Shown: in pieces, positions 8,434 to 28,031 of the stretch
Position numbering within the stretch: the first letter of the stretch is position 1
Layout: each line of letters starts with the position of its first letter
The notes under the pieces: generated by a model
What the model was told of the DNA's origin: nothing
The model's input: the letters and a program-made list of their open reading frames with translations, nothing else
The model's database searches: none
Translations under genes and position numbers: made by a program
DNA from: Salegentibacter salegens
GTDB lineage: Bacteria; Bacteroidota; Bacteroidia; Flavobacteriales; Flavobacteriaceae
Direction of reading: 5' to 3'
DNA: 64,000 bases
Assembly (NCBI RefSeq): GCF_900142975.1
Contig: NZ_LT670848.1
Coordinates: 682,001-746,000 of the forward strand

Positions 8434-8495
8434 GAGGGTGTAATCTCAAGTCTGTCTAGACTTTGAAAATTAAATTAAAATTTTTAGACTAGATT

Positions 8496-9734
8496 ATGAC
8501 ACAAGAAGAGATTAAGGAATTAAAGGAAAAAGCATTAAAACAATTTTTATCAGGAGAATCCCTAACCGGCAAAAACGGCGCTTTTGCTCCAATGCTTAGG
8601 GAGTTTATGGAAGAGGCCCTGGAAGCAGAAATGTCTTCGCACCTTTCCGATGAAGAAAAAGGCTCAAAAGCAGGTAATAAGCGTAATGGCAAAGGCAAAA
8701 AGACCCTAAAGAGCAGCCAAGGGGACGTCACCATTAACACGCCCCAGGATCGTAACAGTACCTTTGAGCCGGAGATCGTAGCGAAACGCCAGCGTATCCT
8801 GGCCGATAATTTAGAAAAGCAGATTATAGGCATGTACGGGATGGGCAATAGCCTGCGGGATATCTCAGCTCATATAGAGGAAATGTATGATTCCAAGATA
8901 TCCACACACGTTCTAAGTGATATTACGGACCGGGTGATTCCCAAGGTTAAGGAATGGCAGGATCGCCCCTTGGAGCCGGTATATTGCATCCTATGGCTCG
9001 ACGCGATGCACTTCAAGGTACGCGAAGAAGGCAAAGTAAAGCACAAGGCCTTGTATAATATTTTAGGAATAAATAAAGCTGGAAGAAAGGAAGTGCTGGG
9101 TATGTATATCTCGGAAAGTGAAGGGGCCAATTTTTGGCTTCAGGTGCTGACCCAATTAAACAACCGTGGCTTAAAAGATATTCTGATTGCCTGTACGGAT
9201 AATCTTACGGGCTTTAGTGAAGCCATTCATTCTGTTTATCCCAAGACTGATATTCAGCTATGTATTGTCCACCAGATCCGCAATAGTATGAAGTATGTGG
9301 CCAGTAAGGATCAAAAAGATTTTATGAAAGACCTTAAACTGGTGTACAAGGCTGACACCAAAGACCAGGCTGAATCGGCTTTACTGGATCTGGAAGAAAA
9401 ATGGGGCAAAAGATATCCCATAGTGATCCGTTCCTGGAATGATAACTGGGACCGATTGAGTGCTTATTTTGAATATACCGCACCCATTAGAAAACTCATA
9501 TACACCACAAATGCCGTAGAGGCTTTTCACCGGCAGGTAAGAAAAGTAACCAAGACCAAAGGCGCTTTTACCAATGATATGGCACTATTGAAGCTGGTTT
9601 ACCTAGCTACCAGAAGAATTGAAAAGAAATGGAACGCCCCACTGCAGAACTGGGGTTTGGTAGTTCAACAATTAGCTATTAAATTTGAAGGTCGGCTAGA
9701 GTTGGACTTAGCCACCAATGAAACGAAAAACTAA
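8496..9734 (+). CDS. IS256-family (mutator-like) transposase, copy 1
   Basis: The 412-residue DDE transposase is identical at protein level to the one at 26731-27969. The catalytic aspartates are in ILWLDAMHFKV and LIACTDNLTGF, the zinc/His region is CIVHQIRNSMKYV, and the glutamate is in YTTNAVEAFHRQ. The N-terminal third (SHLSDEEKGSKAGNKRNGKG) is the DNA-binding part. It is intact and probably functional. Two identical copies within 20 kb imply recent activity. Its start lies 62 bases inside the left end, and a 32-bp perfect palindrome follows its stop. Confidence 0.95.
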   Translation: MTQEEIKELKEKALKQFLSGESLTGKNGAFAPMLREFMEEALEAEMSSHLSDEEKGSKAGNKRNGKGKKTLKSSQGDVTINTPQDRNSTFEPEIVAKRQRILADNLEKQIIGMYGMGNSLRDISAHIEEMYDSKISTHVLSDITDRVIPKVKEWQDRPLEPVYCILWLDAMHFKVREEGKVKHKALYNILGINKAGRKEVLGMYISESEGANFWLQVLTQLNNRGLKDILIACTDNLTGFSEAIHSVYPKTDIQLCIVHQIRNSMKYVASKDQKDFMKDLKLVYKADTKDQAESALLDLEEKWGKRYPIVIRSWNDNWDRLSAYFEYTAPIRKLIYTTNAVEAFHRQVRKVTKTKGAFTNDMALLKLVYLATRRIEKKWNAPLQNWGLVVQQLAIKFEGRLELDLATNETKN

Positions 9735-9738
9735 AATT

Positions 9739-9770
9739 TTCTTCTCCCGGGGGTACCCCCGGGAGAAGAA
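9739..9770. terminator. 32-bp perfect loopless palindrome after the IS256 transposase
   Basis: TTCTTCTCCCGGGGGT is followed directly by its exact complement, just after the transposase stop codon and before the right terminal repeat. In RNA it would form a very stable GC-rich hairpin that could end transposase transcription and block readthrough from outside. The same palindrome is present in copy 2. Confidence 0.7.
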
Positions 9771-9796
9771 GCAGACAGAGTTGAGCTAACACTCCC

Positions 9797-10598
9797 TGGA
9801 GAATGGGTTTCACCACCTCAAAAATACTTTAGTGAATCACATTTAAACTGTTTTGGACTTTCATTCTTTTTAGCATCTGTAGAAGCTTTTAATGACAATA
9901 ATGATTTCGTGCTTCTTGACGACGTGATATCCAGTTTCGATACTAATCATAGAAAAAGATTTGCTGAGTTGATTTTTGAGAAGTTTTCAAAATATCAGAT
10001 TATTCTGCTCACACACGAATATGATTGGTTCAAAAATTTCGTTAGTCCTCTGGCCAAGCAGAAAAACTGGATTATAAACGAAATTAAATGGACAGAGAGT
10101 AAAGGTACATTTTTAGATGAAAAACCTAACGACTTGAAAGAGCGTATAGAAAAGTCTATCGTCGAAAGCAATATTGAAGGTTTGGGTAATCCTATAAGGA
10201 TTTATTTAGAACATTCACTTAAAGAAATATGTTCAAACTTGGATGTAAAGGTAAGTTTTAGGTATAATGACTTTAATGAAAAACGAATGCCCGATGAATT
10301 AATAAACGCGTTAAAATCCCGAATAAAGGATAAAAGCGAGGAACTTAAGGAAGAGTTTCCTACCATTGAGCGTGTAGCTAATTCAGCCTTATTTGGAAAT
10401 CTACTTTCCCACGATAACCCTTCCAATCCGAAAATTGGGGATTTGAAAGCATTCTGGTCCGATATCTTAGCGTTAGAAAATATATTCGTTTGCGATAAAG
10501 AAGATTGTAGAAGACCGAGAGTTTCGTTAAAAAATTACGATACTGTGGCGAAGACTATTAGATGTGGCTGTGGGCACTCTAATTATGATTGGAAATAA
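9797..10598 (+). pseudogene. C-terminal half of the zinc-hook SMC-like ATPase, separated by inversion
   Basis: The frame begins at the IS256 border (codons from 9798: G-E-W-V-S-P-P-Q) and continues for about 266 residues. It carries the ABC signature variant FSESHLNCFGL, Walker B FVLLDDVISSFD with D-loop, and the switch histidine in ILLTHEYDWF. About 190 further residues end in a zinc-ribbon-like C..C/C.C cluster (VCDKEDC, RCGCGH). It has no Walker A. That is in the other half at 28032-29667, which ends in the same G-E codons inside an identical 8-bp duplication. Joined, they give an 809-residue ATPase. The GTG at 9909 could start a fragment but would leave a useless partial nucleotide-binding domain. 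Confidence 0.88.
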
Positions 10599-10603
10599 CG
10601 AAT

Positions 10604-10969
10604 TCAAAAAGGCCCTTTATTCCTCGGCCCATTATGAGTAACCTTCCATTTGCCATCTTCTTGAACCAGCTTAAAAACCCCGGGCTTCGTATCGTAAGCT
10701 GTGGAATATTTTACCCAAGCCACATCATCGTCCATAGCTTCACCTATTATCTTAAAATTGGAGTCTGAGCTTTTTTCTTGAGCAAACATTTCTTGAATAC
10801 TTGAAAGGTTTGCATAGCCTTCCGCTGTGGTATGTTTTTTTAAGGTTGCTTCATCACCGTGATAAAAACTTTCGGCAACAACTTTGGCAGTTTCAGTTGG
10901 GGTAAGGGTTTTATTCTGAGAACAGGAAATAAATAAAAGTACTAGCGAGCAAATAACTAAATGTTTCAT
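10604..10969 (-). CDS. Small lipoprotein with NTF2-like (DUF4878) fold, tra-operon end
   Basis: At 121 residues, it has the lipoprotein signal MKHLVICSLVLLFISCSQ (lipobox FISC) for export and lipid anchoring. The rest resembles DUF4878/NTF2-like domains: TPTETAKVVAESFYHGD, then a helix-rich part and KLVQEDGKWKVTHNG. It sits 7 bases after traN on the same strand and is probably the last gene of the transfer operon. It may be a surface accessory, and a role in exclusion or stabilising the transfer apparatus is only a guess. It converges, with 5 bases between, on the ATPase fragment. Confidence 0.65.
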   Translation of the reverse strand: MKHLVICSLVLLFISCSQNKTLTPTETAKVVAESFYHGDEATLKKHTTAEGYANLSSIQEMFAQEKSSDSNFKIIGEAMDDDVAWVKYSTAYDTKPGVFKLVQEDGKWKVTHNGPRNKGPF

Positions 10970-10976
10970 AGCCTTA

Positions 10977-11831
10977 TCAATTTGGATTATTAATGTATTT
11001 ATGTGATATTCTCAGTTCAATATTACGTTCGCCATCTTTCTCATTCAGTTCCAAAATTGCCCTTCGATCATTTGATAATGAAAACTTAGGCAACACATAA
11101 ACGAATCGTACCGTTTCATTTTCTGCGATTTTAGAAGGCAGATTCTGTATGTAAATCGGTTCCTGATACAGCCGTTGCAACGATTTCCTTTTTCCTTTTT
11201 GTCTTGTTTCAATAGAGAGTTTCAAGAAATTCAAATCGTAATCCAAAGTAGAATTATTCTCAATCTGGATAACGAAGTAGAGCTCTTCTTTATCGAAAAC
11301 AATATTTTCAACACTTAAAATTATGTCTTCGTTTCGTTTCTTAATCTTTCCGATGCGCTGTTTTCTGTCAAGAAGATAGGAGCAGAATTTTTCATAATAA
11401 TACTTCCTGTAATCAACACTTTTTTCAGAAGTCTCAGCCTGAATCGAATCCTTCACTTTTGGCTTTTCATTTCCAATACTGTTGGACATTGGAATGAAAT
11501 AATTGAGCTTTAAAAGCTTCTCTTTATACCTTACAATGTACGAAAAAATGGAACCATTTCTATTGACTACCAGAAGATTACTTTCTTCTCCAGGCTTTCC
11601 CTGTAGCAGTCCAAAATATTGTTCTTTTTCACGGTTGTAAGTAAACACAAAATTCTCTGAACCGGTTATTCCTTGTCGAATGGGTTCAGGAAAAAAGAGT
11701 GCAACATTTTTAGTGTCATTGGCATAAATAGTGTCCAGAACTTTAGTTATTTGAGGTGTAGCTTGTGCCGAGCAAGGTAGAGGTGTAAAAGCGCAAATTA
11801 GTATAGCTGATATTAAAATAAATGGTCTCAT
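10977..11831 (-). CDS. traN: Conjugative transposon protein TraN (DUF4138)
   Basis: This 284-residue exported protein has a Sec signal (RPFILISAILICAFTPLPCSA). The following LDTIYANDTKNVALFFPEPI and FVFTYNREKEQYFGLLQGK blocks are the start of the TraN family, the VirB9-like outer-membrane component of Bacteroidota type IV secretion systems. The C-terminal half contains YRKYYYEKFCSYLLDRKQ and a beta-rich domain ending LRISHKYINN. Its start overlaps the traM stop by 4 bases, indicating coupled translation in the tra operon. It is complete and expected in the outer membrane channel with TraM. Confidence 0.88.
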   Translation of the reverse strand: MRPFILISAILICAFTPLPCSAQATPQITKVLDTIYANDTKNVALFFPEPIRQGITGSENFVFTYNREKEQYFGLLQGKPGEESNLLVVNRNGSIFSYIVRYKEKLLKLNYFIPMSNSIGNEKPKVKDSIQAETSEKSVDYRKYYYEKFCSYLLDRKQRIGKIKKRNEDIILSVENIVFDKEELYFVIQIENNSTLDYDLNFLKLSIETRQKGKRKSLQRLYQEPIYIQNLPSKIAENETVRFVYVLPKFSLSNDRRAILELNEKDGERNIELRISHKYINNPN

Positions 11832-12757
11832 AGCTTTGGTTTTAGAATTAGTTTATAGTTGTTCAATACGGTTACTTTTACGTTTCGATTGTTACGTTTA
11901 AGTATCTTAGTAATGCCGCTTATTTGCGGAACACTCGGGATGTTGATATCGCCAATTATATCATCCAAAACTTCATTGGTTGCCTCAGCACGAAAATTGT
12001 TTTCAACATAAATACCTTCACTACCATCTTGCAGATCAAATGCTTTGAGTTTCGTGGGATGATGATCGATATTCTCAATTTCAATCAAAGCACGGTTAGG
12101 CTGAAAGCTGATAAATCCAAATACGAATGTATTCTTAGGCATCTTTCTGTTATTGATTGTTGCAGCTTTGGTAAGTCGCATTCTTAGTCTGGTATTCGCT
12201 TTTACAATCTGATCGCCATCGACCACCACATAAATAGTTTCGTCTGTATTACTGATACTTGAAATCTCATTGTGTCTGGGTGCAGCTGCAAAGAACAATT
12301 GATGTTCCAGACCAAGTTCTTTGGCTTGAATTTTTAGCTCTCTATTTATTTCAGCTGAATCAATTTGCTGTGCATCGTTTCGGGTATCTCTCTTTACTCC
12401 GATATTCTGATAAGACTTTTCGGAATATTGGATCCTACCTGCATCATAAATACTGTCCACGATGCGTTCTTTTTCTCGTTCGGGTAGATCCGGATCATAA
12501 AAGCCCATAGAATCGATCAGTTTCTCATCATAAATACTAGGAGCGTTGGTTTCGCGAACCTCTTTCAAATCATTGATGGCATCCAGTTTAGAATCGTATT
12601 CTTTCTGGTTTTCTTCTAAATCGGGTACCAAGGTCTGCTCAAGGTTTTTATTTTCACTTTCATCATCGCCCATTACCATCAGGGAATAGGAAATAAGAAA
12701 TATAAAAATTACAGCTAGTACTGCTGCGAATACAATTTTATTCTTTTCTATTTTCAT
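11828..12757 (-). CDS. traM: Conjugative transposon protein TraM
   Basis: At 309 residues, it has a single N-terminal membrane helix (KIVFAAVLAVIFIFLISYSLMV), a long charged and helical periplasmic linker, and a C-terminal VirB10-like domain (residues about 180-305: IYVVVDGDQIVKANTRLRMRLTK is its core, shown only in part). TraM spans the envelope and links the inner-membrane energiser to TraN. It lies between traK and traN, and the usual traL between traK and traM is not present: the 121-base gap before it carries no convincing gene. The frame is open upstream of the chosen ATG, but the membrane helix placement supports this start. Confidence 0.85.
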   Translation of the reverse strand: MKIEKNKIVFAAVLAVIFIFLISYSLMVMGDDESENKNLEQTLVPDLEENQKEYDSKLDAINDLKEVRETNAPSIYDEKLIDSMGFYDPDLPEREKERIVDSIYDAGRIQYSEKSYQNIGVKRDTRNDAQQIDSAEINRELKIQAKELGLEHQLFFAAAPRHNEISSISNTDETIYVVVDGDQIVKANTRLRMRLTKAATINNRKMPKNTFVFGFISFQPNRALIEIENIDHHPTKLKAFDLQDGSEGIYVENNFRAEATNEVLDDIIGDINIPSVPQISGITKILKRNNRNVKVTVLNNYKLILKPKL

Positions 12758-12878
12758 CTGTTGCTGTTTATTTATTTTTCGTTTGTCAGATGTAATTCGC
12801 CAATCAACATTCCGGCTAATGCCCCAAATTGTTAAGGCTCATTTCATAAGAGTGGTTTTTTAAATGCCGATTATCGGC

Positions 12879-13493
12879 TCAGTTTTCATTGTTTAATTTT
12901 TTTAAGGTGTTTTCGAAGTAGTCTGCAATCAATAATCCGTGTGGATTGTTGGGGAAGTTTCGGTCAACCATAATCAGATTCCCGGTTGAAATCAATTCGT
13001 AAGTGTCGATTATCGACCCTCTATTGATTTCAAAAATGGTTGTTGTAGTAAAACTGTATGAGCCATTATTATCTGTAATCCGAGAATCGATACTCAGTAC
13101 TTTTTGAAGTAATGAATACTGTAACAATCGATTATATACACCATCAGCTTTTTTCTGACGGTACAGGTTGTCCACGGAACTATTACCTAGCCATAGTGCT
13201 TTTTTTAAATTACGTTCATAGTTACTGGCATCGATATTATAGAAGTAATTATGAAAAAGTTCTAAATGTGCCAAAGCCTCGACTTTGAAATTCTCTTTTT
13301 GGGTAACAAGTTTGAGCGGAATGATACTGCCGTCGGTATTGATGGCGAAGGCACTATTGAGCGCATTTTTATGAGTGGTAAAAGCTATCCAAACCGAAAA
13401 GGTACTGGTTAGCAATGCACAAACGACAACGGCCAAAACGATAAATCGGTTTAAATTCAGGACGCTATATATATTCTTGTATGGTGTATTCAT
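12879..13493 (-). CDS. traK: Conjugative transposon protein TraK
   Basis: At 204 residues, it begins MNTPYKNIYSVLNLNRFIVL with one transmembrane helix (residues 15-37) and a periplasmic domain containing AEALAHLELFHNYFYNID-like text (ALAHLELFHNYFYNI) and SLLQKVLSIDSR. This is the TraK family, the VirB8-like assembly factor of Bacteroidota conjugation systems, which nucleates the channel at the inner membrane. It follows traJ by 11 bases and is part of the continuous traE-traN operon. Length and features match intact family members. Confidence 0.87.
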   Translation of the reverse strand: MNTPYKNIYSVLNLNRFIVLAVVVCALLTSTFSVWIAFTTHKNALNSAFAINTDGSIIPLKLVTQKENFKVEALAHLELFHNYFYNIDASNYERNLKKALWLGNSSVDNLYRQKKADGVYNRLLQYSLLQKVLSIDSRITDNNGSYSFTTTTIFEINRGSIIDTYELISTGNLIMVDRNFPNNPHGLLIADYFENTLKKLNNEN

Positions 13494-13504
13494 GTTGTTT
13501 TAGA

Positions 13505-14347
13505 TTAGCTAGTAAACAGTCTAAGCGTGAAGGACGTGGCACGCCTGTATAATTTGAATTTCAGAAAAACTATAAAACCAACAGATCCAAGCTGTACCAC
13601 AGGAGCAAAAAAGCCTTGGCCTACATCTGTTCCGAAAAGATTTGTCCAAAAATTAGTATTAAGCTCGGTATAGATTGCATTGATAAATATATTGACCAAA
13701 AAGAAGGCAGGCACGAGCATATAAACCGCAGCGTATAACTTGAAAAATGAGTAGGCCAGGGAGCGGAATTTTTCAAATACCGCTAAGCTAATGACCAATG
13801 GGAAAAAGGCCTGCATTATGCCCAATAGAAAGTAACGTTCTGCAAGAAATAGCGGATAAATAAACAAATCCAGAATCCAAAGGAAGAGACTAATAATAAA
13901 AGCGAAAATTTTGAAGCCATATAGTGGCGTTACCAGAGCTTCATAAAGTAGGGTCATTGCATTTTTCGCAGCGTCCATAAGATTAACATCTTCCTCAATG
14001 GGAATATCCTGCATCTGTAAAGGCAATAAGGCAGGTGCAGTTCCGCGATATTGCCCTTCTATGGAAACAAGGATGCTATCAAAGAATCCTAATACTTGTG
14101 TTGAAAAAATAACCAATATCACTACTGCAAAATTTTTGGCCAATTCCCCCGGGCTCAGTCCCCAAGTGTAACCGTCCTTATCCGCAATACCTTCATTGTA
14201 TTTCTTTAGGATATTGATCAGGAAAAACAGGACAGCAAGCGTTTTCATTCCTGCAATGGTGTATTGCGAGAAACTACTATTCTGTATAGTCTGGAAAATA
14301 GTATCAATATATTCCAGCCCTATCCCTAAAATGATAGTTGCGGCCAT
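13505..14347 (-). CDS. traJ: Conjugative transposon protein TraJ
   Basis: This 280-residue polytopic membrane protein has about six to seven helices. Conserved blocks include GLEYIDTIFQTIQNS, IADKDGYTWGLSPGELAKNF and LFLAERYFLLGIMQAFFPLVI, matching TraJ (VirB6-like), the inner-membrane channel protein of the type IV secretion system. It follows traI with a 2-base gap and precedes traK by 11 bases. It is slightly shorter than some homologues (around 300-330 residues) at the C-terminus but shows no frameshift, so it is probably complete. Confidence 0.87.
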   Translation of the reverse strand: MAATIILGIGLEYIDTIFQTIQNSSFSQYTIAGMKTLAVLFFLINILKKYNEGIADKDGYTWGLSPGELAKNFAVVILVIFSTQVLGFFDSILVSIEGQYRGTAPALLPLQMQDIPIEEDVNLMDAAKNAMTLLYEALVTPLYGFKIFAFIISLFLWILDLFIYPLFLAERYFLLGIMQAFFPLVISLAVFEKFRSLAYSFFKLYAAVYMLVPAFFLVNIFINAIYTELNTNFWTNLFGTDVGQGFFAPVVQLGSVGFIVFLKFKLYRRATSFTLRLFTS

Positions 14348-14349
14348 TT

Positions 14350-14982
14350 CTAATATTCGGTTTCGCGGTTATTTACTTTGTCTTGCATTTTTCTGAAGGA
14401 AATAATATCCTCGTAACGTTTGGTTTTTGTCTTGATGTTCGAGACCATTTCTCTAGATTCCAGTTCTTTTTCTTTTAAAATTTCTGCACGTTCCGCATCA
14501 CTCATTTTTAGGTAATCATTCGATAGAATTTCATCGATGAAATCCATTGTGTCCAGGGAATTTTCTATAATGGCACTAAACGATTCCGATACCCTTGCCA
14601 CTTCATCAGGTTTGATGTAAGGACTGTCAAGAATATCTCTCAAATCACTTTGCATCACTTGGATGAGGCGTTGGTTGTTCCGTCCAATTTCACGAACAGC
14701 TTTTAATTGTCTAACCACATCGTTGACCTTTTCAATGTTTTCTTTTTGTGTCTTTAAGAACATTACTGTCTTGATTATGTTTGCGGTCTGCTTACCTGAT
14801 TCTATAAGTTGTTTTACCAAACTGATAAAATTGGTGTTGTCATAAGTGGGCATTCCTTGGCACGCAGCGCGTGCAGGCAATAACAAAGCGATGGCCATTG
14901 CTATCATTAATGTTTTGATTTTTGCTTTACTCAAAGCTTGCCTGTTGCTTGAGTGTTCGTGAATTTTCTTCGAAAATTTCAT
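14350..14982 (-). CDS. traI: Conjugative transposon protein TraI (DUF4141-like)
   Basis: This 210-residue exported protein has a hydrophobic signal around residues 24-40 (LMIAMAIALLLPARAA) followed by a long, mostly helical periplasmic region with coiled-coil character (NIEKVNDVVRQLKAVREIGR; SESFSAIIENSLDTMDFIDE). This is the usual shape of TraI/VirB5-like proteins in CTnDOT-type systems. It lies between traG and traJ, the expected order. Function is inferred from family and position. VirB5-like proteins sit on the pilus or in the periplasm. Confidence 0.82.
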   Translation of the reverse strand: MKFSKKIHEHSSNRQALSKAKIKTLMIAMAIALLLPARAACQGMPTYDNTNFISLVKQLIESGKQTANIIKTVMFLKTQKENIEKVNDVVRQLKAVREIGRNNQRLIQVMQSDLRDILDSPYIKPDEVARVSESFSAIIENSLDTMDFIDEILSNDYLKMSDAERAEILKEKELESREMVSNIKTKTKRYEDIISFRKMQDKVNNRETEY

Positions 14983-14993
14983 AATGTTTATAT

Positions 14994-17399
14994 TTAAGAG
15001 TTTATATAGATTTTGATAGCTTCTTCCATTGAGCCAGTCTTTTCATAAATCGCCATTATGGCTTCGTTTTCCTGTCCATCGGTCAGGTAAGCTGCATATA
15101 CTTCTTTCGGCACTTCGAGCCTAAAAATGTTGCTTTCCTTTCCAATCTTGATGAACATTTCGGTGTACTTCCGTGGACCGGAAAAGTTGTTCTTGATGGA
15201 CTTTAATTGGTTCAGATCGTGGCTCGAAAGGTTGAGTCTTTTAACTAGTTCATCATAGCCTTTTTCATTATTGAGGCTGTAGATAACTTGCGTGTTTTCC
15301 AGAATACTTGCTGAAGTCGAATTATTCGGAAGCTGATTAATGGACTGTAGTATAATGCCAATCGCACCATTCTGTTTACGGATGGCTTGATAATAGAATT
15401 CCACACTTTCCAGTACGTTTTCAAACTTCAGTTGCTTGGCAAACTCATCAAATAGAATGATGCCTTTTTCCGCACGATTCTTCCAAATGGTTCGTTGGAT
15501 TGCCGACTTAATCAGCTTCAACATTACGGATAGGATTTCCTTATTATCCTTTACTTCATCCAATTCAAAAACTATCAATCGTTTGTCCTCAATTTTATAG
15601 GTCTGGTCTTCACCTAACTCAAATAGGAAACTATATAGACCATCGCCGACGTACTCGGACATTACATGCAAGAAGCTTGTGACATTGAAATAGTCGGGAT
15701 GGATTTTAAGGGTGTCTAGAAGGACTTCCTGATTCCTTTCTATAAAGACGTAGAAACCTTCTAAAGAATGATTTTCGGAAGTGCTATCGTAATAATGACG
15801 CAGTATTTTCTTGACGGAAACAGATTGTGCCTTGGTTATTTTTAAATCTGAAGCGAATAATTCAAACAGGAAAACAGATAAATCTTCAAGGCGTTCTGGT
15901 GTCAAATCATTTTGATTGCTGATGTAAAATGGATTGATACCCAAATTCTTTCCACTCTCGTAACGCAATACTGTGTATTGTTCAGGATATAGTTTAGCAA
16001 ATTTTGTGTAGGATCCTCCAAGATCTATAATAACCAGGCGAACACCACTTTCAAAGTATTGACGTAGAATATTATTGGCTAGAAAGGATTTGCCCTCGCC
16101 TGTAGGGGCGAAGATGGCAAAATTGCGTGCTTTAATTCGTTTTTTACGCTCATCCCAGACATCTTTGAGAACTGGAATATTATGTTCACGATCATTGAAG
16201 ATGATTCCGGTAGCATCTGATTTGTAATTGGTGTTGTTGATGAACAAGCACAATGCGTGCTTTAAATCGGTAACGTATAAATCATTATTGGAGAAGTTGG
16301 ACGAAAAACAGCAATAACTGTTAAGTATATAATTCTTCCGCTCCTCCCCTCTCGGATAATATGGGATGATATCCAGTTCCTTGAATTCAGTTTTAATCTT
16401 TGAGGTAATTTTATCCAACTCTTTAGCATCCTTTGACCAATAAATAATATTGAGATGACCACGGATGATCCGTGCATTATCATCGGCATTGATTTGGTCT
16501 AGAATATGTTGAATTTTTCCAAGTACCACTTTGTTCTGTGAACCGAAATTGGAACTTTTGTTAAGTTCCTCTATTTTCTTATCGAGCAACTTGCGCCACT
16601 TATGTTTATCATCCAAGTACAGGATCTGATTTACAATGTGGTTCTCATTAAGGGTAAGCCCTAGACCATCAATAAACCCTTGATGAAATACAAAATCGTC
16701 AGAAGTGAATTTCTCATTGGTCTTGCTACTCTGTACACTTTCGCCAAAGCACAGTTCGCTATTGATGGCAAGGGCATCAAAATGGTTTTCGCCAATATTG
16801 ACGCTTTTCTTATCTAGTAAAATATCAGTATCGAAACCCTCATTGAAGCCATTGAAATAGGTCTCCGTGAGACCGACAATTTCTTTTTCATTTAATGGTT
16901 TGAGAGACACTCTCCGGCTATTGTTGATAAAAGAAACTGCATCGCTTACCGAGTTGGCGAAGCTCTTTATGTTCTCATCCAGTTCTTGTACAATTCCCTT
17001 AGAAACCTTTCTGAAAGGATTGACATATTTTGAATTGTTGAGTGCTTTGTTCTTGGTCAAAATGAAGAACAAATAACACTTATGTTCGATATGCCCACGA
17101 CCTTTAAAATGCTCGTGTGTGGCTTTTTCCAAAAAAGTCTTATTCGGAAGCTTTTCTGAAGAATAGGACTTTTTAAGGTAGATATCCTGTTTGTGAACCA
17201 CAGTCCCAACAGGCAAGGACTTCAAAGCCTGGCACCAAGCACCGTGAATGTCCTCAAAGTCCTTTTCAGAGAGGGAATAGATTTCTGGCAGATTCCCTTC
17301 ATAGCATAAAACCACGTTGCCATTATTGGCAAATACGATATTGTCCTGAATATCCGCAATGGGTTGATATGCTGAAAGGTTAATCTTGTTCATAATCAA
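14994..17399 (-). CDS. traG: Conjugation ATPase TraG (VirB4-like)
   Basis: At 801 residues, this is the motor ATPase that energises substrate transfer and channel assembly at the inner membrane. Walker A is FAPTGEGKSFLANNI (around residue 430) and Walker B is KGIILFDEFAKQLKF (around residue 650), followed by NGAIGIILQSINQLP. The N-terminal half contains the TraG family blocks KTFLEKATHEHFKGRGH and YFNGFNEGF. Its start overlaps the traF stop by 20 bases, so the two are co-translated. The GC content and codon use match the other tra genes. It is full length and likely functional. Confidence 0.92.
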   Translation of the reverse strand: MIMNKINLSAYQPIADIQDNIVFANNGNVVLCYEGNLPEIYSLSEKDFEDIHGAWCQALKSLPVGTVVHKQDIYLKKSYSSEKLPNKTFLEKATHEHFKGRGHIEHKCYLFFILTKNKALNNSKYVNPFRKVSKGIVQELDENIKSFANSVSDAVSFINNSRRVSLKPLNEKEIVGLTETYFNGFNEGFDTDILLDKKSVNIGENHFDALAINSELCFGESVQSSKTNEKFTSDDFVFHQGFIDGLGLTLNENHIVNQILYLDDKHKWRKLLDKKIEELNKSSNFGSQNKVVLGKIQHILDQINADDNARIIRGHLNIIYWSKDAKELDKITSKIKTEFKELDIIPYYPRGEERKNYILNSYCCFSSNFSNNDLYVTDLKHALCLFINNTNYKSDATGIIFNDREHNIPVLKDVWDERKKRIKARNFAIFAPTGEGKSFLANNILRQYFESGVRLVIIDLGGSYTKFAKLYPEQYTVLRYESGKNLGINPFYISNQNDLTPERLEDLSVFLFELFASDLKITKAQSVSVKKILRHYYDSTSENHSLEGFYVFIERNQEVLLDTLKIHPDYFNVTSFLHVMSEYVGDGLYSFLFELGEDQTYKIEDKRLIVFELDEVKDNKEILSVMLKLIKSAIQRTIWKNRAEKGIILFDEFAKQLKFENVLESVEFYYQAIRKQNGAIGIILQSINQLPNNSTSASILENTQVIYSLNNEKGYDELVKRLNLSSHDLNQLKSIKNNFSGPRKYTEMFIKIGKESNIFRLEVPKEVYAAYLTDGQENEAIMAIYEKTGSMEEAIKIYINS

Positions 17400-17664
17400 A
17401 GCTTGAATTTCTTTTATTACTAATTATGGTTGGAAAAGCCTTCTTCATTTGAAAGACTTGTGGTGTGTTATTTATTCTGGTCAAAACAATGTATAATGCA
17501 GCATTGATTATGAAGAGTCCTATAATTATCCCAAAGCTGAATGAAAAGATGATAACCAAAAGCGAAGCGAGTATGGTGACCATCATTAATGCAAACAGTG
17601 AAATAGACAGTCCAAAGATGACCGCTTGTTTTCTGATATTTTTATAGACCTCGAACGTTTTCAT
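17380..17664 (-). CDS. traF: Conjugative transposon protein TraF (DUF4133)
   Basis: This 94-residue protein has two adjacent membrane helices (residues 14-60) preceded by FEVYKNIRKQAVIFGLS and followed by a short cytosolic tail. DUF4133/TraF is the VirB3-like small partner that docks the VirB4-like ATPase to the membrane. It lies 2 bases after traE and overlaps traG by 20 bases, which is the standard order. It is complete. Confidence 0.87.
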   Translation of the reverse strand: MKTFEVYKNIRKQAVIFGLSISLFALMMVTILASLLVIIFSFSFGIIIGLFIINAALYIVLTRINNTPQVFQMKKAFPTIISNKRNSSFDYEQD

Positions 17665-17666
17665 CG

Positions 17667-17954
17667 CTATACTACAATTCCGATTAGATATGTAAATATT
17701 CCTACGACAGCCCCTGCGATAAGGACGAAGACGAGCACCCGGGTAATCCCTTTTTTGAGGTCTGCATTTTCCCCGAAGAAGTGTCCTGCGTTAAATAGGA
17801 AGCCAACCAAAAAAATTGCGCCCAGAAGAAAAGGAAATATTCTCCTGATGGTATCAGAGATTTCATTGACACTATTCTCGATCCCACCAATTTGTGCAAA
17901 AAGAGAAGTCGAGAGCAATGAAAGAAAAATTGCCAAATAGAGTGATTTTTTCAT
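17667..17954 (-). CDS. traE: Conjugative transposon protein TraE (DUF4134)
   Basis: This 95-residue protein has a cleavable signal (KKSLYLAIFLSLLSTSLFAQ) and two further helices joined by a short loop (FLLGAIFLVGFLFNAGHFFG; VLVFVLIAGAVVGIFTYLIG). This is the VirB2/pilin-like TraE (DUF4134). It is the first gene of the tra operon here; the traA-traD genes usually found upstream are absent. Its start faces a divergent amidase gene across about 190 bases that contain an array of ATTTGAT half-sites. Confidence 0.87.
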   Translation of the reverse strand: MKKSLYLAIFLSLLSTSLFAQIGGIENSVNEISDTIRRIFPFLLGAIFLVGFLFNAGHFFGENADLKKGITRVLVFVLIAGAVVGIFTYLIGIVV

Positions 17955-18004
17955 AACGGAAAAGTTTAGATTTTTGATTCATTTTCGTTCTTTTAAATTT
18001 ACAT

Positions 18005-18097: not shown

Positions 18098-18143
18098 TCT
18101 ATGGATTTTGGAAGGTAGGTTGTTGATAACCCGAAAAGTGAAA

Positions 18144-18389: not shown

Positions 18390-18394
18390 TGGGT

Positions 18395-18538
18395 ATTCCG
18401 GGGTAAACTGTACAGGTCATTCCTGTCCAAAGTGAACACCTGATTCCTGAGCAAACTGTACACCTTATTCCTGGGTAAAGTGAACAGTTCATTCCTGCTC
18501 AAAGTGAACACCTGATTCCGGGGCAAACTGGACAGTTT
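18395..18538. repeat. Six tandem 24-bp repeats at the IS21 left end
   Basis: Units start ATTCC at 18395, 18419, 18443, 18467, 18491 and 18515, exactly 24 bases apart. Each has the pattern ATTCCnGnnnAAAnTGnACA, alternating between AAACTG and AAAGTG forms. Two inverted copies lie at the right end (about 20939-20984). IS21 ends commonly hold a few such sites; six is a long array. Confidence 0.9.
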
Positions 18539-18584
18539 TTAATGATGGTTTTAGGTTATATTATGTGATACAAATCAACATAGT

Positions 18585-20138: not shown

Positions 20139-20156
20139 ACCTATAAATACAAAACA

Positions 20157-20891
20157 ATGAACACAAATGCTACTATTGAAAAGATGCAGAAAATGCGTCT
20201 AAACGGAATGAAACGAGCCTATGAATCTTCTTTTGAGACCAGGAACCAGGACACCTTCACCAACGATGAATTCATTGCCTGGCTTATCGAATCGGAAGAT
20301 ACCCAGCGCAACAACAACAGGACGGACCGCCTACTGAAAAACGCCCGCTTCCATTACCAGGCGTCCATTGAGGAGATCAATTACACCCCCGACAGGGATC
20401 TTGACCGTAACCTGCTCACCCGGCTTTCAGACTGTTCTTTCATCGACCGTCATGAAAATATGATCATCACCGGTTGTACCGGAACAGGAAAATCCTTTTT
20501 GGCAACGGCACTTGGCTACCAGGGCTGTATCAAAGGATATAAGGTGCTCTACTATAATCTGGGAAAGCTCTTTAACAAATTGACAATGGCCAAAGCTGAT
20601 GGAACTTATATGAAAGAACTCACTAAAATAGAAAATCACGACCTTTTAATTATAGATGATTTTGGCCTACAGGCCATCAACAATGAAAAACAGCTTATAC
20701 TGATGGATCTGATCGAAGACCGCAACCAAAGAAAATCCACTATCTTCTGTTCACAGCTACCGGTAAAAAATTGGTATGACCTGATAGAGGAAAAAACAAT
20801 TGCTGATGCCATTTTAGATCGAATTATACACTCAGCAATTAGGTTCGAACTCAAAGGAGAATCTATGAGAAAGAAAATGAAAAACAACTAA
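20157..20891 (+). CDS. istB: IS21 helper ATPase IstB
   Basis: This 244-residue AAA+ protein is related to DnaC. Walker A is ITGCTGTGKSFLATALG, Walker B is DLLIIDDFGLQ, and the sensor region is STIFCSQLPVKNWYDLI. IstB assembles on target DNA and stimulates IstA. It directly follows istA and ends about 90 bases before the right terminus. It is complete. Confidence 0.95.
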   Translation: MNTNATIEKMQKMRLNGMKRAYESSFETRNQDTFTNDEFIAWLIESEDTQRNNNRTDRLLKNARFHYQASIEEINYTPDRDLDRNLLTRLSDCSFIDRHENMIITGCTGTGKSFLATALGYQGCIKGYKVLYYNLGKLFNKLTMAKADGTYMKELTKIENHDLLIIDDFGLQAINNEKQLILMDLIEDRNQRKSTIFCSQLPVKNWYDLIEEKTIADAILDRIIHSAIRFELKGESMRKKMKNN

Positions 20892-20984
20892 AAATTTTTG
20901 TCTAATTTTATTACCAAGAAACCATCAAAAAATGACTGTACAGTTTAGGCAGGAATAGGGTGTCCAGTTTCGCCGGAATATTCA

Positions 20985-21387
20985 ATATACTGATACGCTC
21001 ATTTCGCTATCGGATAGAACTAAGCTTGTCAAAGTTCTAAATGCAGATGTATTTATTTCGTTGCATTGCAATCATTCCGACAATCCAAATGCTAGAGGGA
21101 TTGAAGTGTATGTGGCCAACGGGAAATCTAAATATTTTGAAGAAAGTACTTGGCTCGCTTATCAATTGCAAGCTGAGTTTAAAGATAGATTAGGTTTTGA
21201 GAGTAGGGGCGTGAAGTTTGCGAATTTTCAGGTGTTACGAGAAACTCAAGATTATTTTCCAGCTGTGCTTTTGGAATTGGGTTTTTTGAGTAATTGGGAT
21301 GAATCTTGCTATTTTTTAAAAACTGATAATATCAAAGCTACTGCATTAGCCATTTTAATGGGATTGTATAACTATTTCAATATTTAA
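20985..21387 (+). pseudogene. N-acetylmuramoyl-L-alanine amidase, 3' part
   Basis: It begins with the second copy of the IS21 target duplication (ATATACT) and continues in frame as DTLISLSDRTKLVKVLNADV, then the zinc ligand region ISLHCNHSDNPNARGIEVYV and the catalytic glutamate in AVLLELGFLSN. These are the second half of Amidase_3. It completes the 5' part at 18144-18389. A start at 21061 (TTG) is possible for a fragment but would omit part of the domain. A small gene follows 2 bases after the stop. Confidence 0.9.
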
Positions 21388-21491: not shown

Positions 21492-21494
21492 ATA

Positions 21495-21943: not shown

Positions 21944-23584
21944 CTATTTATTCAGCTGTAATTTTTTGTAATTCTGGGGATAGAGATTCTTAATATCCTT
22001 ATACTTGATGATCATGATATTCTCTAAGGTATATTTTAACCACTGGTAAGGATTTACCTCATGTTTTTTGCAGATGGCAAAAAAGGAATAGATTGCTGCG
22101 GCTCTTTGCGCAGCCTGATGGGACCCGGCAAATAGGTAGTTTTTTCTACCGATTGCAATGGTTCGGATTTTATTCTCTATTAAATTATTGTCAATACGTA
22201 AATTGCCGTCATAGAGGTATGCACACAACGCATCCCACCTGGAGACGCTATAGGCAAGGGCTTTTCCTATCAGACTTTTGGGCAGGGTGCGGGCAAGCTG
22301 CTGGGTCATCCATTTCCCCAATTCATTGATCACCGGTAGTGCCTTTTTCAGCCTAAGCTCCTTGGTGTCTTCAGGGCCCAGCTTAGCTTCTTTGATTTCT
22401 CTTTCAATGGCATATAAACATTGTATCTGCCTTAAGGCATGTTTTGCCCTTTGCGGATCATTATCCAAGGATTTTTCATAATAACGTCTGGCATGAGCCC
22501 AGCATCCTAGATGGGTTACCCCTTCCTTTTTAGCATATTCATCATACACTACATAACCATCTGTCTGAAGATAGCCTTTAAAGTCTTTCAGCATATGGAC
22601 AGGTGCCTTTTGCCCACGGGTAGGCTGGTAGTCAAAGACTACATTTCCATCGATCGGGCTATGGTATACCCAATAGTAACCCAGATGGGTTTTTCCTTTT
22701 TTTCCCTCATCCTGGACTTTTATTGTCGTCTCGTCTACTTGCAAGTAGCCTTGGGATTTTACATCTGCTATTAATTCTTCAAAGAGAGGAACAATCCGGT
22801 CGAGCCCTTTGGCACACCAGCCATTGATAGTAGAAGGAGCAATGGGTATCTTTTCCCTTTTAAAACGCTGAAGCTGCCGGTAAAGTGGTAAATGGTCACA
22901 GAATTTATCGACCAATATGGAAGTTACAAGTCCGGCCCCGGCAATACCTTTATCGATCACCCGCTCCGGTAGTTCCCCAATGACCACACCTTCGCCAGAC
23001 TTGTGGGCATATTTATACCGAATATACCTGCGGATAAAAAACCGTGCAGGTTCGCAGTCCAGTTCATCGGTAACTTCCTGACCGATACATTTCCTTCCGG
23101 AGATATCCTCCTGGGGATAGATCTTCACTTCTTCTACCGGGAGATGGTCTGGTAATGGCTGGCGGCCTTTATGATTGGTATTTTTCTTCTTGCGCTGGTA
23201 GGTAATCTTCTCAGTAAAGGCTTCTTCCCGGTTTTGAAGTTCTTGGGTATTGGGCTCAAAAGGCAGGGTCAACTGATCCTTATCCTCAAAACGCTCGCGT
23301 TTCTGACCAAACTGCATCCTTCGAAACATATCCAGCTGGCTTTCCAGATAAGCTACTTTTTCTTCAAGAACCCCAGATTTGCTTAAATATTTACGAAGTT
23401 GCTCATCGCCCCGGGCAAGTTCCTTGTCTGCTTGTTTTAAATCTTTCTCCTGTTGCTTTAATTCTTGCTGAAATTTTTGAAGCTCTTTTTTATGGGAAGC
23501 GATCGCTTTGGAATGCTCTTGGGACTGCTCTTTTATAAGGGCCAACAATTGTTGTTTTGAGAAGGATTCAAGGGCTTTTTCCAT
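21944..23584 (-). CDS. tnpC: IS66 transposase TnpC
   Basis: This 546-residue protein has an N-terminal coiled coil (residues about 15-75, KQQLLALIKEQSQEHSKAI), a zinc-finger-like region with the leucine-zipper context of IS66 transposases, and the DDE core: YLQVDETTIKVQD, YLQTDGYVVYDEY with HLGCWAHARRY, and LIENKIRTIAIGRKNYLFAG. It cuts and joins the IS66 ends. The open frame is intact, so the element is probably active. Confidence 0.95.
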   Translation of the reverse strand: MEKALESFSKQQLLALIKEQSQEHSKAIASHKKELQKFQQELKQQEKDLKQADKELARGDEQLRKYLSKSGVLEEKVAYLESQLDMFRRMQFGQKRERFEDKDQLTLPFEPNTQELQNREEAFTEKITYQRKKKNTNHKGRQPLPDHLPVEEVKIYPQEDISGRKCIGQEVTDELDCEPARFFIRRYIRYKYAHKSGEGVVIGELPERVIDKGIAGAGLVTSILVDKFCDHLPLYRQLQRFKREKIPIAPSTINGWCAKGLDRIVPLFEELIADVKSQGYLQVDETTIKVQDEGKKGKTHLGYYWVYHSPIDGNVVFDYQPTRGQKAPVHMLKDFKGYLQTDGYVVYDEYAKKEGVTHLGCWAHARRYYEKSLDNDPQRAKHALRQIQCLYAIEREIKEAKLGPEDTKELRLKKALPVINELGKWMTQQLARTLPKSLIGKALAYSVSRWDALCAYLYDGNLRIDNNLIENKIRTIAIGRKNYLFAGSHQAAQRAAAIYSFFAICKKHEVNPYQWLKYTLENIMIIKYKDIKNLYPQNYKKLQLNK

Positions 23585-23622
23585 ACTATAAAAGTACGGT
23601 TTTTTAGCCTTTAAAGCAACAA

Positions 23623-23997
23623 TTATTTTACATTTTTATCAGCAAAAACAAGGGGTTTGGGAGGGTTGTACCTGGAAAGGTGACGCAGTTTTTCTGCTTT
23701 AATCCCTTCAATCATCATCACCAGTTGGCCCCAACTCACACCTCCTGATCGCAGGCCTTTGGGCAGGGAGAACGTACCCTTTTCCAGGCGCTTATAATAA
23801 ATGACAAAACCCCCGGATTCCCAGTGCAGGAGTTTGATGTGGGTGGCCCGGCGGTTGATAAAAATAAACACATCTCCACTAATAGGATCTTTTCCCATCT
23901 TACCGGTTACCAATCCCGATAGGCCGTGGAATCCTTTGCGCATATCACAAGCTCCCTTATAGAGATAATACCGGTGGGAAGAACTTAAACTGAACAT
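23623..23997 (-). CDS. tnpB: IS66 accessory protein TnpB
   Basis: The 124 residues match the IS66 Orf2-like family: YYLYKGACDMRKGFHGLSGL, FIFINRRATHIKLLHWESGG and YYKRLEKGTFSLP. It is required for transposition of complete IS66 elements though its mechanism is unclear. It starts 3 bases after the tnpA stop, implying coupled expression. It is complete. Confidence 0.93.
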   Translation of the reverse strand: MFSLSSSHRYYLYKGACDMRKGFHGLSGLVTGKMGKDPISGDVFIFINRRATHIKLLHWESGGFVIYYKRLEKGTFSLPKGLRSGGVSWGQLVMMIEGIKAEKLRHLSRYNPPKPLVFADKNVK

Positions 23998-24000
23998 AAG

Positions 24001-24285
24001 CTACAGGTTGATCAGTGCAGATAATTGACCCAAACCAATACCGGAAACCTCTAATTGCACGCCATTAGGATACCTAAGGCGGTACTGAGATTGGAAAAAA
24101 TCTGCTTTATCAGGAGATAATTTTACAAAACCGTCAAAAGCTTCCTCTTTTGTGTTTTTCCATTTTTTTAACCAGTAAAAAAACTTACTGGGGGCTATCC
24201 CATGGTTACGGCAGAAAGTTTTCTTACTTAAACCACTAATTTCCCATTCCTTGATTATTTCAAACATACTGGCTTGCTTATCCAT
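24001..24285 (-). CDS. tnpA: IS66 accessory protein TnpA
   Basis: This 94-residue protein has a helix-turn-helix: FEIIKEWEISGLSKKTFCRN then HGIAPSKFFYWLKKWK. It matches the small first gene of IS66 elements, which is thought to bind DNA. It begins inside the IS, and the NTPase fragment reads a few codons into the IS on the same strand in another frame. It is complete. Confidence 0.9.
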   Translation of the reverse strand: MDKQASMFEIIKEWEISGLSKKTFCRNHGIAPSKFFYWLKKWKNTKEEAFDGFVKLSPDKADFFQSQYRLRYPNGVQLEVSGIGLGQLSALINL

Positions 24286-24351
24286 TTATTTTTTGTGGCA
24301 AGCTAGAATTTATCTGAAGTTTACAAAAGATGTACTTAGCCGTTTGGATAC

Positions 24352-26668
24352 TCTTTAACTGTTTTCCATCTAAATCATTAAAGATTATGGAGACAGAGTG
24401 ACCACCTAGTCCAAAGTAAACATCCTTATTCGTTAGAAAGTCAATTACTCTTTCTATTTCGTCCATTCTTTCCGGATAATCCCATATAAATGAAAGATTA
24501 AGGTCTTTGTTATCTCTATGTACATCATACTCTGAATAAAAATATGAGAAAAAGTCGAATAAGAACTCCTTATGGGTTGCGTAGATATTGGCGAATCCTT
24601 TCATTTGATAATCAAAAGAAACTGATGATTTTGATAGTTCAAATTGTTGTAAATAGGATTCTTTAATTAAATTATAATCATTCTCAAATAACACTAGTGC
24701 ATCTTTAAAAGGATATTCGGATAATCTGATTTCTTGTGAATCCGTCTTAATTTTATTATGAACTATACTCATAATTTCCTTAACCGCATTTCTATTCTTT
24801 TTCGAAAACTTAACATACTGGTCAATATAAAGATAAACGAAACCACTTAGTGAATGAATAGTATTAATAAGCCTTTCAAAATATGCGTCATTCACAAATT
24901 CATTAGGTAATCGGTTAAAAAATTCAAGTTTCCAATTGATAGATTTTTCGTTATCCCAATTATATAATATTTCCCATAATTTTAATGCATATTCTTCAGA
25001 GTGGTTAACAATCGTAGAAATAGTTTTATGCAAGTACCGAATGTCATAATTTTTATTCAAATAGGACTCTAAAAAGTTTAGCCCAAGTTCAGGGTGCTGA
25101 ACAAAATTTTCAGAAAGCACCACTTCAATTGAATTTTCGATTTGAGAGTGTGTATTATCCTTTACACTCTGAAAATTATCAATAGTTTTTAAAAAAACAT
25201 CAAACTCTTTTTTAGAATTACACTTGAAATTTTCCTTCAAATCATCGCTTTTTATTTTTTCATATTCTTGCCAATTATCAAATTCATATTCTTCCTTATC
25301 TCTAAATCTATTCCAGTCCAGCTTTTTATAATCGCGATATTCTTGGGTGTCATATATTGGTATCAATTCCAAATAGGTCATATTGGTTATTTTTTTCTCT
25401 CTTTTGAGGGATGCAATTAGCCTATTTGTCACATAAGTTTCTTTGAAAGAATTTGGAGAAAATTTCTCTTTTATGAATGGCACTAATAATGTTAAGTCGA
25501 AATCTAGAATCTCACAATTTCTTTCTCTAAAATCAGGTTTATATTTATTAATTGTTCTAATGACTTCATTTCTATAATTATCTACCAATGAAAATAATGT
25601 TTCCCATATAACAGTTCGTATTTTCTTTATTTCATCGGTTGCAGGTAGAGGGTAATCGTAGAAAGAAATTGTGTTTTTCCTTCCCCCGTGAGTCATATGA
25701 TGGGAGTGTTTTAAAAAGCTATCAGCTATTGCAAAGAATGCGATGGAATAATGCACCTTTTTACCTTCAATATTATCTCTTATATGTTGAATAAAAAGTG
25801 CCTGTCTTTGGTAACCATACCTTTCATCAGGTTCATCAAAAAGTAGATTTTCTCTTATTCTACGAATGAACTCAGGAAGATGTTCTGGTTTCTTTCTTAC
25901 GTATTCAAAACCTAATTGAATAGCTGGAATGAATGCTTCCGTTTGATGTCTAAAAAATCTAGATACATAGTCTATGGTTTCTTCTTTTTTATATACAAAA
26001 TCGTTTGTTTCATAGTGTGTGTCATAATTTGGCTCTTCTGGCTCAATAATCGAACTAATTCTACTTAAAAAAAATGCTAATGTTTCGTCTGGCTTATAAA
26101 ACCAAAACAAATCTAGAAAGTCTATTAACTTGTTTTCTTCTTTTTGCACCGAATCAATATATTTATCTAATGCAGGGTTAATTTTAGAAATTACATTTTC
26201 ATAGCCGAAGGAATTATTAGCAGGGTATATAGCTTCTCTAAAGGAATATTTGTGAGTTTCAAAATAGTTAAACAATAGCTTTTCAAAAGGCAGCCAATTA
26301 TCCCTAATAAATACGACATAGAAAAAGTAAGTTGCCATTACTTGTTCAGAAATGCGAATATGATTGTATTGAATTTCTACTAACTCTCTTTTATGTAACT
26401 CTTCAATAGCTTCATTAAAAACATAATAATCCATTTCGAAAATTGAGAGGAGTCTTTCTACAACTTCTTTATTTTCTCTATCTATGGTAAAGAAAAACGA
26501 AACTAAACCTAAAGCTTTAAGAAGGTCGGGCTTATCAAATAGGTTAAAATCCATTGAGAAACTTGTGAAATAAGTCTCGAATAAATCTGATACGTCGCCA
26601 AACAAGAATTTAGACTCTTTTTCAAGGGCAATACGAGCACCCATAATTGCTAATCTTGGATTACCGTT
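24352..26668 (-). pseudogene. Large NTPase-like protein, middle part (cut by IS256 and IS66)
   Basis: The frame is open to the exact IS256 border at 26668, reading N-G-N-P-R-L-A-I-M-G-A-R-I-A-L, so the apparent ATG at 26644 is internal. This GNPRLA block resembles the end of the nucleotide-binding module of STAND/NACHT-type ATPases, followed by a winged-helix-like part and a long helical region (about 770 residues, with KYIDSVQKEENKLIDFLDLF and EIYYNHIRISEQVM-like text). Walker A and B would be in the missing 5' part. Native sequence stops at the IS66 border, and the last 24 or so residues of the open frame are IS sequence. STAND proteins often act in anti-phage defence. That role here is inference from one motif and the cargo context. 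Confidence 0.7.
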
Positions 26669-26694
26669 GGGAGTGTTAGCTCAACTCTGTCTGC

Positions 26695-26726
26695 TTCTTC
26701 TCCCGGGGGTACCCCCGGGAGAAGAA
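26695..26726. terminator. 32-bp perfect palindrome, IS256 copy 2
   Basis: This is the same loopless GC-rich palindrome as in copy 1, just after the transposase stop on the minus strand. Confidence 0.7.
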
Positions 26727-26730
26727 AATT

Positions 26731-27969
26731 TTAGTTTTTCGTTTCATTGGTGGCTAAGTCCAACTCTAGCCGACCTTCAAATTTAATAGCTAATTGTTGA
26801 ACTACCAAACCCCAGTTCTGCAGTGGGGCGTTCCATTTCTTTTCAATTCTTCTGGTAGCTAGGTAAACCAGCTTCAATAGTGCCATATCATTGGTAAAAG
26901 CGCCTTTGGTCTTGGTTACTTTTCTTACCTGCCGGTGAAAAGCCTCTACGGCATTTGTGGTGTATATGAGTTTTCTAATGGGTGCGGTATATTCAAAATA
27001 AGCACTCAATCGGTCCCAGTTATCATTCCAGGAACGGATCACTATGGGATATCTTTTGCCCCATTTTTCTTCCAGATCCAGTAAAGCCGATTCAGCCTGG
27101 TCTTTGGTGTCAGCCTTGTACACCAGTTTAAGGTCTTTCATAAAATCTTTTTGATCCTTACTGGCCACATACTTCATACTATTGCGGATCTGGTGGACAA
27201 TACATAGCTGAATATCAGTCTTGGGATAAACAGAATGAATGGCTTCACTAAAGCCCGTAAGATTATCCGTACAGGCAATCAGAATATCTTTTAAGCCACG
27301 GTTGTTTAATTGGGTCAGCACCTGAAGCCAAAAATTGGCCCCTTCACTTTCCGAGATATACATACCCAGCACTTCCTTTCTTCCAGCTTTATTTATTCCT
27401 AAAATATTATACAAGGCCTTGTGCTTTACTTTGCCTTCTTCGCGTACCTTGAAGTGCATCGCGTCGAGCCATAGGATGCAATATACCGGCTCCAAGGGGC
27501 GATCCTGCCATTCCTTAACCTTGGGAATCACCCGGTCCGTAATATCACTTAGAACGTGTGTGGATATCTTGGAATCATACATTTCCTCTATATGAGCTGA
27601 GATATCCCGCAGGCTATTGCCCATCCCGTACATGCCTATAATCTGCTTTTCTAAATTATCGGCCAGGATACGCTGGCGTTTCGCTACGATCTCCGGCTCA
27701 AAGGTACTGTTACGATCCTGGGGCGTGTTAATGGTGACGTCCCCTTGGCTGCTCTTTAGGGTCTTTTTGCCTTTGCCATTACGCTTATTACCTGCTTTTG
27801 AGCCTTTTTCTTCATCGGAAAGGTGCGAAGACATTTCTGCTTCCAGGGCCTCTTCCATAAACTCCCTAAGCATTGGAGCAAAAGCGCCGTTTTTGCCGGT
27901 TAGGGATTCTCCTGATAAAAATTGTTTTAATGCTTTTTCCTTTAATTCCTTAATCTCTTCTTGTGTCAT
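26731..27969 (-). CDS. IS256-family transposase, copy 2
   Basis: The 412 residues are identical to the copy at 8496-9734, with the same DDE residues (LDAMH, CTDN, AVEAFH). The intact frame suggests it is still competent. Because both copies match, homologous recombination between them is easy and would flip the 17-kb segment between them back and forth. Confidence 0.95.
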   Translation of the reverse strand: MTQEEIKELKEKALKQFLSGESLTGKNGAFAPMLREFMEEALEAEMSSHLSDEEKGSKAGNKRNGKGKKTLKSSQGDVTINTPQDRNSTFEPEIVAKRQRILADNLEKQIIGMYGMGNSLRDISAHIEEMYDSKISTHVLSDITDRVIPKVKEWQDRPLEPVYCILWLDAMHFKVREEGKVKHKALYNILGINKAGRKEVLGMYISESEGANFWLQVLTQLNNRGLKDILIACTDNLTGFSEAIHSVYPKTDIQLCIVHQIRNSMKYVASKDQKDFMKDLKLVYKADTKDQAESALLDLEEKWGKRYPIVIRSWNDNWDRLSAYFEYTAPIRKLIYTTNAVEAFHRQVRKVTKTKGAFTNDMALLKLVYLATRRIEKKWNAPLQNWGLVVQQLAIKFEGRLELDLATNETKN

Positions 27970-28031
27970 AATCTAGTCTAAAAATTTTAATTTAATTTTC
28001 AAAGTCTAGACAGACTTGAGATTACACCCTC

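Follow-up and report, generated by a model that had tools for sequence, protein, structure and literature searches.

Swapped target duplications around a split ATPase gene point to probable inversions and a deletion between identical IS256-family copies in Salegentibacter salegens

How does a single gene come to lie in two halves on opposite strands, each half abutting a copy of the same insertion sequence (IS)? This question is raised by a 64,000-nucleotide stretch of Salegentibacter salegens DNA (the window; positions 682001-746000 of a genome assembled as one contig of 4,009,999 bases), in which an SMC/Rad50-like ATPase gene is divided between 9797-10598 on the plus strand (3' part, Walker B side, frame from 9798) and 28032-29667 on the minus strand (5' part, Walker A side, with a CPLC motif). 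Coordinates are those of the window unless called genomic. Where long identical repeats are inverted relative to each other, homologous recombination flips the DNA between them; where they are direct, it deletes that DNA. We consider it probable that the present order arose in this way, through real IS-mediated inversions of 17 kb and about 1.2 Mb together with a deletion.

The two IS copies are designated copy A (8434-9796, plus strand; genome 690434) and copy B (26669-28031, minus strand; genome 708669), with transposase genes at 8496-9734 and 26731-27969, respectively. The sequence-only reading had placed two inverted IS256 copies around a 17-kb segment, and the comparison bears this out, since each copy spans 1,363 nt, the arms are 100% complementary and 16,872 nt lie between them. 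The 412-residue protein of copy A is a Mutator-type transposase (PF00872, E 1.6e-101, residues 14-380), and that of copy B is identical in sequence. The termini form imperfect inverted repeats, GAGGGTGTAATCTCAA and, reversed, GGGAGTGTTAGCTCAA. Members of the IS256 family typically duplicate 8 bp of their target (8-9 bp), and the PF00872 transposase together with the 8-bp duplications described below fits an assignment to this family. In IS orientation, copy A is flanked by GAACAGAA on the left and TGGAGAAT on the right, and copy B by TGGAGAAT on the left and AACGGTAA on the right. The same eight bases thus adjoin the IS at both halves of the ATPase gene, as had been claimed: TGGAGAAT stands at 9797-9804 (plus) beside the 3' half and at 28032-28039 (minus; plus-strand reading ATTCTCCA) beside the 5' half.

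Do the two halves belong to one gene? As read from the window they encode 545 residues (28033-29667, minus) and 266 residues (9798-10595, plus). Each half was aligned separately to homologs, with positions projected from the alignment ends, and both met at one seam in 120 of 120 homologs (the best 120 of the 713 found with the 5' half). At this seam the start of the 3' half precedes the end of the 5' half by one residue position, leaving a two-residue overlap (GE), as expected for an 8-bp duplication. The intact 809-residue protein predicted to exist in relatives was found as the nearest homolog, P0001, which is 809 residues long and 95% identical to both halves (residues 1-545 for the 5' part and 544-809 for the 3' part). 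In ten loci taken from titled genome records the halves are contiguous in nine and the tenth stops at a contig edge, with no IS match at E 1e-3 in any of the ten. A search for solved structures related in sequence to the ATPase returned none at E 0.001. The ATPase is broken in the current arrangement.

The order before the 17-kb event can be read from a related element in another genome of the family, G309. The 3' ATPase part had matches in 18 of 397 family genomes, counting the own genome, and strong ones came only from the own genome and G309 (94% in G309, at most 35% in the remaining matched genomes). TraN matches occurred in 118 of the 397, and one of the three TraN copies of G309 starts 385 bases past the ATPase and faces it. 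Blocks from window 46003-28031, read backwards, align to G309 C1:2112312-2126075, and blocks from window 9797-18385, read forwards, follow directly at C1:2126067-2134587. Altogether eight blocks covering about 21 kb, including a last piece from 21008-21302, lie in the order predicted for the uninverted state. The two aligned sides overlap by nine bases at the ATPase seam, where G309 carries a single TGGAGAAT, the gene runs through intact and no IS was found. The flanks and this empty site in G309 show the IS insertion in the ATPase gene, and with the GE overlap they uphold the proposal that it entered with an 8-bp duplication. Likewise, colinearity of G309 with the restored order agrees with the claimed 17-kb inversion. 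At this one seam the alignment shows the window's conjugation (tra) block turned round relative to G309, which lacks the IS and keeps the uninverted order, with the breakpoints at the IS borders. The hallmarks of inversion are present, namely long identical inverted arms at the breakpoints and target duplications swapped between copies. The G309 comparison bears on the 17-kb event and not on the events of 1.2 Mb and 2 Mb considered below.

Is a single inversion sufficient? An exact genome search for both IS ends found 43 left and 46 right ends, and hence 43 full copies, identical over 1,363 bases; the surplus right ends are a 304-base piece at genome 261007 and two facing pieces at 956376-956459. 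Comparison of the eight bases on each side of all 43 full copies revealed exact target duplications at 35. The eight copies with non-matching flanks are A (690434), B (708669), C (1917607), P (205335), Q (2198098) and those at 1951873, 3655688 and 261311. Between different full copies there are four left-right identities: TGGAGAAT is shared by A right and B left, GAACAGAA by A left and C right, and copies P and Q match in both directions. With a probability of about 4e-5 that two random genomic 8-mers agree, only about 0.002 agreements would be expected by chance among the 56 left-right pairs of the eight unmatched copies. The outer flanks of the window pair (those opposite TGGAGAAT) differ, GAACAGAA at copy A and AACGGTAA at copy B, and GAACAGAA recurs 1.23 Mb away at copy C (locus L020), beside polysaccharide genes. 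Because the outer flanks differ and the chain of shared 8-mers reaches copy C, a second inversion of about 1.2 Mb and a deletion are called for. The present order would then need no fewer than two inversions, one of 17 kb and one of about 1.2 Mb in whichever order, plus the deletion, and the earlier order may be reconstructed as left polysaccharide genes, copy A, the 1.2-Mb segment reversed, copy B, the tra block, copy C and the right flank of copy C. The 17-kb step is present in both possible histories. Thus the insertion and the 17-kb inversion of the sequence-only reading stand, but its history is incomplete, the second copy being no plain insertion.

After the flanks of A, B and C have been matched, copy C is left with AAAATCGA and AACGGTAA as its two flanks. 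Neither has a partner among the 43 full copies and the three right-end pieces, nor, with one mismatch allowed, among the ends that lack matching flanks. The sequence AACGGTAA falls within a gene related to nSTAND3 NTPases; its fragment at 24278-26668 (minus) is cut at copy B and corresponds to residues 350-1135 of the 1,251-residue P0206. Only residues 350-1135 and 1114-1251 of P0206 match the own genome, with IS66 genes (21944-24285) between the two remaining pieces, and residues 1-349 have no match there. This is best read as loss of the first 349 residues through a deletion between two direct IS copies, which would explain both the unpaired flanks of copy C and the missing start of the nSTAND3-type gene.

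At the other end of the chain, a family 2 glycosyltransferase gene is cut at copy A; its 5' part (7916-8431, plus; assigned by Pfam) matches full-length relatives. The proposed 3' part lies beside copy C, where the neighbor carrying GAACAGAA holds a frame that would continue the 5' part, followed by an EpsG-family gene and then by a glycosyltransferase-like gene below the Pfam cutoff. The window side of this join holds NusG-like, UDP-sugar dehydrogenase, flippase-like, pyruvyl transferase and family 2 glycosyltransferase genes. The join is based on the shared 8-mer, the continuing frame and the gene context, and its natural reading is that one polysaccharide cluster was cut in two by the A/C rearrangement.

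We propose the following model. An IS256-family element inserted into the ATPase gene of an integrated conjugative element, duplicating TGGAGAAT. Homologous recombination between inverted IS copies would then have flipped the 17-kb tra block and, earlier or later than this, the roughly 1.2 Mb between the window and copy C, the larger flip splitting the polysaccharide cluster. A deletion between two direct copies would have removed the start of the nSTAND3-type gene, whose absence is itself observed. The breakpoints are likewise observed, and from them we infer the recombination event and the order of steps. The outcome is a broken ATPase that a further inversion, judged from the seam, could only return to an IS-interrupted gene. 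Reversal of the 17-kb inversion, which the sequence-only reading had allowed for, is thus possible and would not yield an intact ATPase.

The same ledger contains signs of other events. Copies P (genome 205335-206697) and Q (2198098-2199460) are oppositely oriented, and their 8-bp flanks (AATGATCA and CCATAGGA) are completely exchanged. This would represent either a clean reciprocal inversion spanning about 2 Mb (half of the chromosome) or an assembly ambiguity. The two facing right ends at 956376-956459, 58 bases each, overlap in a palindrome and are the sole remains of the element there. The outer flank of the piece at 956437-956459, ATATTTCC, is also the left flank of the copy at 1951873-1953235, and this fifth identity points to a further rearrangement over about 1 Mb. 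At genome 261007-262673 a full copy is immediately followed by the final 304 bases of a second, similarly oriented copy, and the outer flanks do not match. The copy at 3655688 has two flanks that match no other IS end and are likely a deletion scar. Among the IS matches listed for the 14 further genomes of the genus, with up to 26 candidates scored in each, the best long ones are about 90% identical, short pieces reach up to 99% (139 bases) and none is an identical full copy; at least 11 of the 15 genomes, counting the own, have some IS match. The 43 copies look like the product of a recent spread, because they are identical and have no identical full counterpart among those genus matches.

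Several points weigh against the history proposed above. The current order rests on one assembly, in which a wrong join at identical repeats would look alike, and the outgroup order rests on the single element of G309. The order of the two inversions is left ambiguous by the flanks. The glycosyltransferase 3' part has only five weak matches in 396 other family genomes (best E 3.5e-5), and its score against seven full-length relatives was reached by 6 to 229 of 300 shuffles, so its homology is not confirmed. GC skew in 40 samples is mostly positive on the arc that starts near 2.6 Mb, crosses position 0 and reaches 0.85 Mb, and between 0.95 and 2.55 Mb it stays near zero (-0.09 to +0.05); this rough profile, in which origin and terminus are readable by eye only, does not decide between the orders and was given no weight.

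Could the arrangement simply be an assembly error? The true order would then be the one restored by the matching duplications, with identical IS copies joined wrongly at three places here and at least two elsewhere. Wherever identical inverted copies bound an inversion, the assembly is ambiguous as well, the P/Q pair and the A/B/C set are such permutations of joins, and a published Bifidobacterium longum genome has been judged misassembled at copies of the IS21 and IS256 families (PMC1285363). However, the assembly gave matching duplications to 35 of the 43 identical copies and so handled most of them well, and the A/B/C set has partnerless ends and a missing gene part that go beyond a mere permutation of joins. 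We regard an assembly error as unlikely, though a serious contender. Whether the inversion is real or a misassembly, the order of matching duplications at the ATPase is, by the flanks, the older or true one.

A related alternative is that the inversions are live, with cells continually trading segments of 17 kb to 2 Mb through the identical IS256 copies, such that a culture is a mix of orders. We consider this rather doubtful; were it true, the recorded chromosome order would be one snapshot. It is very improbable that the 17-kb segment is a kept inversion switch controlling the conjugation block or the ATPase. Recombination between identical inverted repeats can run both ways, but turning the segment back leaves the IS in the ATPase gene, the start of the nSTAND3 gene is lost and the same kind of swap occurs at unrelated IS copies. 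A phase-variation switch of the ATPase in particular was rejected, since by the flanks and the seam either order would leave the gene broken, with no on or off state to choose between.

Alternatively, one-step replicative (intramolecular) transposition might have produced the inversion without recombination between older copies, given that this process, too, ends with an inverted segment between two inverted copies. It predicts the same outer 8-mer at both copies in opposite sense, but GAACAGAA and AACGGTAA were found, with GAACAGAA common to the third copy instead, and this explanation is hardly tenable. Movement of the 17-kb segment into the glycosyltransferase gene as a composite transposon, despite the IS copies at both of its ends, has next to no probability, for it predicts that the outer flanks are one duplication when the plus strand has GAACAGAA and ATTCTCCA, and the ATPase parts on opposite sides of the segment are contiguous in G309. 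Homologous recombination between IS copies remains the reading that we prefer.

The inverted segment holds a tra block at 10604-18385 (minus), colinear with G309 C1:2126067-2134587, in which Pfam and NCBIfam models place TraN (10977-11831), TraM (11828-12757), TraK (12879-13493) and TraG (14994-17399), among others. The claim that a tra region lies between the copies is supported. As in a Bacteroidota conjugative transposon, a TraG-type ATPase (TIGR03783, 329.1 bits against a cutoff of 261.55) and a MobB relaxase (NF041495, 408.2 against 200) are present. The equivalog models for TraK, TraM and TraN match, all three below their curated cutoffs. An IS21-type element lies within 18386-21007 (IstB-like gene 20157-20891, partner 18585-20138), and 24-base spaced repeats occur at 18394-18534; positions 18385 and 21008 map 21 bases apart in G309, where the sequence is nearly continuous across this stretch. 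Three overlapping tyrosine recombinase genes in a row (42335-45576), which we take to resemble a recombinase-in-trio (RIT) element, have no match in a 100-kb stretch of G309. A tRNA-Met gene at 47285-47359 is not supported as the attachment site of the conjugative element; 20 bases from its 3' end are single-copy with up to three mismatches allowed, and the 20-kb stretch with the corresponding end of the G309 blocks contains no tRNA. A candidate defense pair, PDC-M19A/B (36793-38502), has no match in the otherwise colinear G309 stretch. Residues 1-252 and 409-666 of a type III methylase (30305-32305) match G309 and the middle does not, as if the recognition part had been exchanged.

What might the intact ATPase do? 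A defense role is likely, because P0002, an intact homolog, hits the LmuB models of the Lamassu defense system (best E 3e-26). Directly upstream of the ATPase lies a GIY-YIG-like protein (29845-30315, minus; PF20815, E 0.0004, below its cutoff), which is present in 10 of 10 loci, with a G309 version at 98%; a type III restriction enzyme and methylase precede it in 4 of the 10. It matches no PADLOC model at E 0.01. The GIY-YIG-like protein and the ATPase are a possible defense unit, although PADLOC has no match to the unit as a whole.

Events of this type are well known, and here one is seen in unusual detail. The window offers a clean worked case: an account of the target duplications at the copies of one IS in a genome points to inversions on the megabase scale and a deletion that would otherwise stay hidden, and an outgroup element provides a check at one seam. 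It also cautions that behind an annotated split or truncated gene there may be a single gene that an IS interrupted and whose parts were then moved away from each other. No paper on IS inversions in flavobacteria was found in a search of an open-licence library. A study of Staphylococcus aureus OC8 describes a 1.04-Mb inversion (36% of the genome) between two oppositely oriented IS256 copies, with a deletion (PMC5065196). The two cases are alike in a multi-copy IS256 genome, a megabase inversion, a direct-copy deletion in the model and breakpoints traced by insertion-site sequences. They differ in phylum and in that the OC8 inversion was checked by PCR, whereas the present one is known from the assembly; here an extra 17-kb inversion in a conjugative element divides an ATPase gene, and at that seam an outgroup element shows the earlier order. 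A second report describes long inversions in Pseudomonas aeruginosa and Escherichia coli that are bounded by inverted repeats, often insertion sequences (PMC5372343); the mechanism is the same, and there too a single repeat copy can serve as a breakpoint more than once; several strains per species were compared there, and one genome and a related element here. Finally, in B. longum NCC2705 an IS-linked misassembly was exposed by the strand-composition pattern (PMC1285363), and IS256-family copies likewise mark the ends of doubtfully ordered segments; strand composition was decisive there, whereas the pattern sampled here is not.

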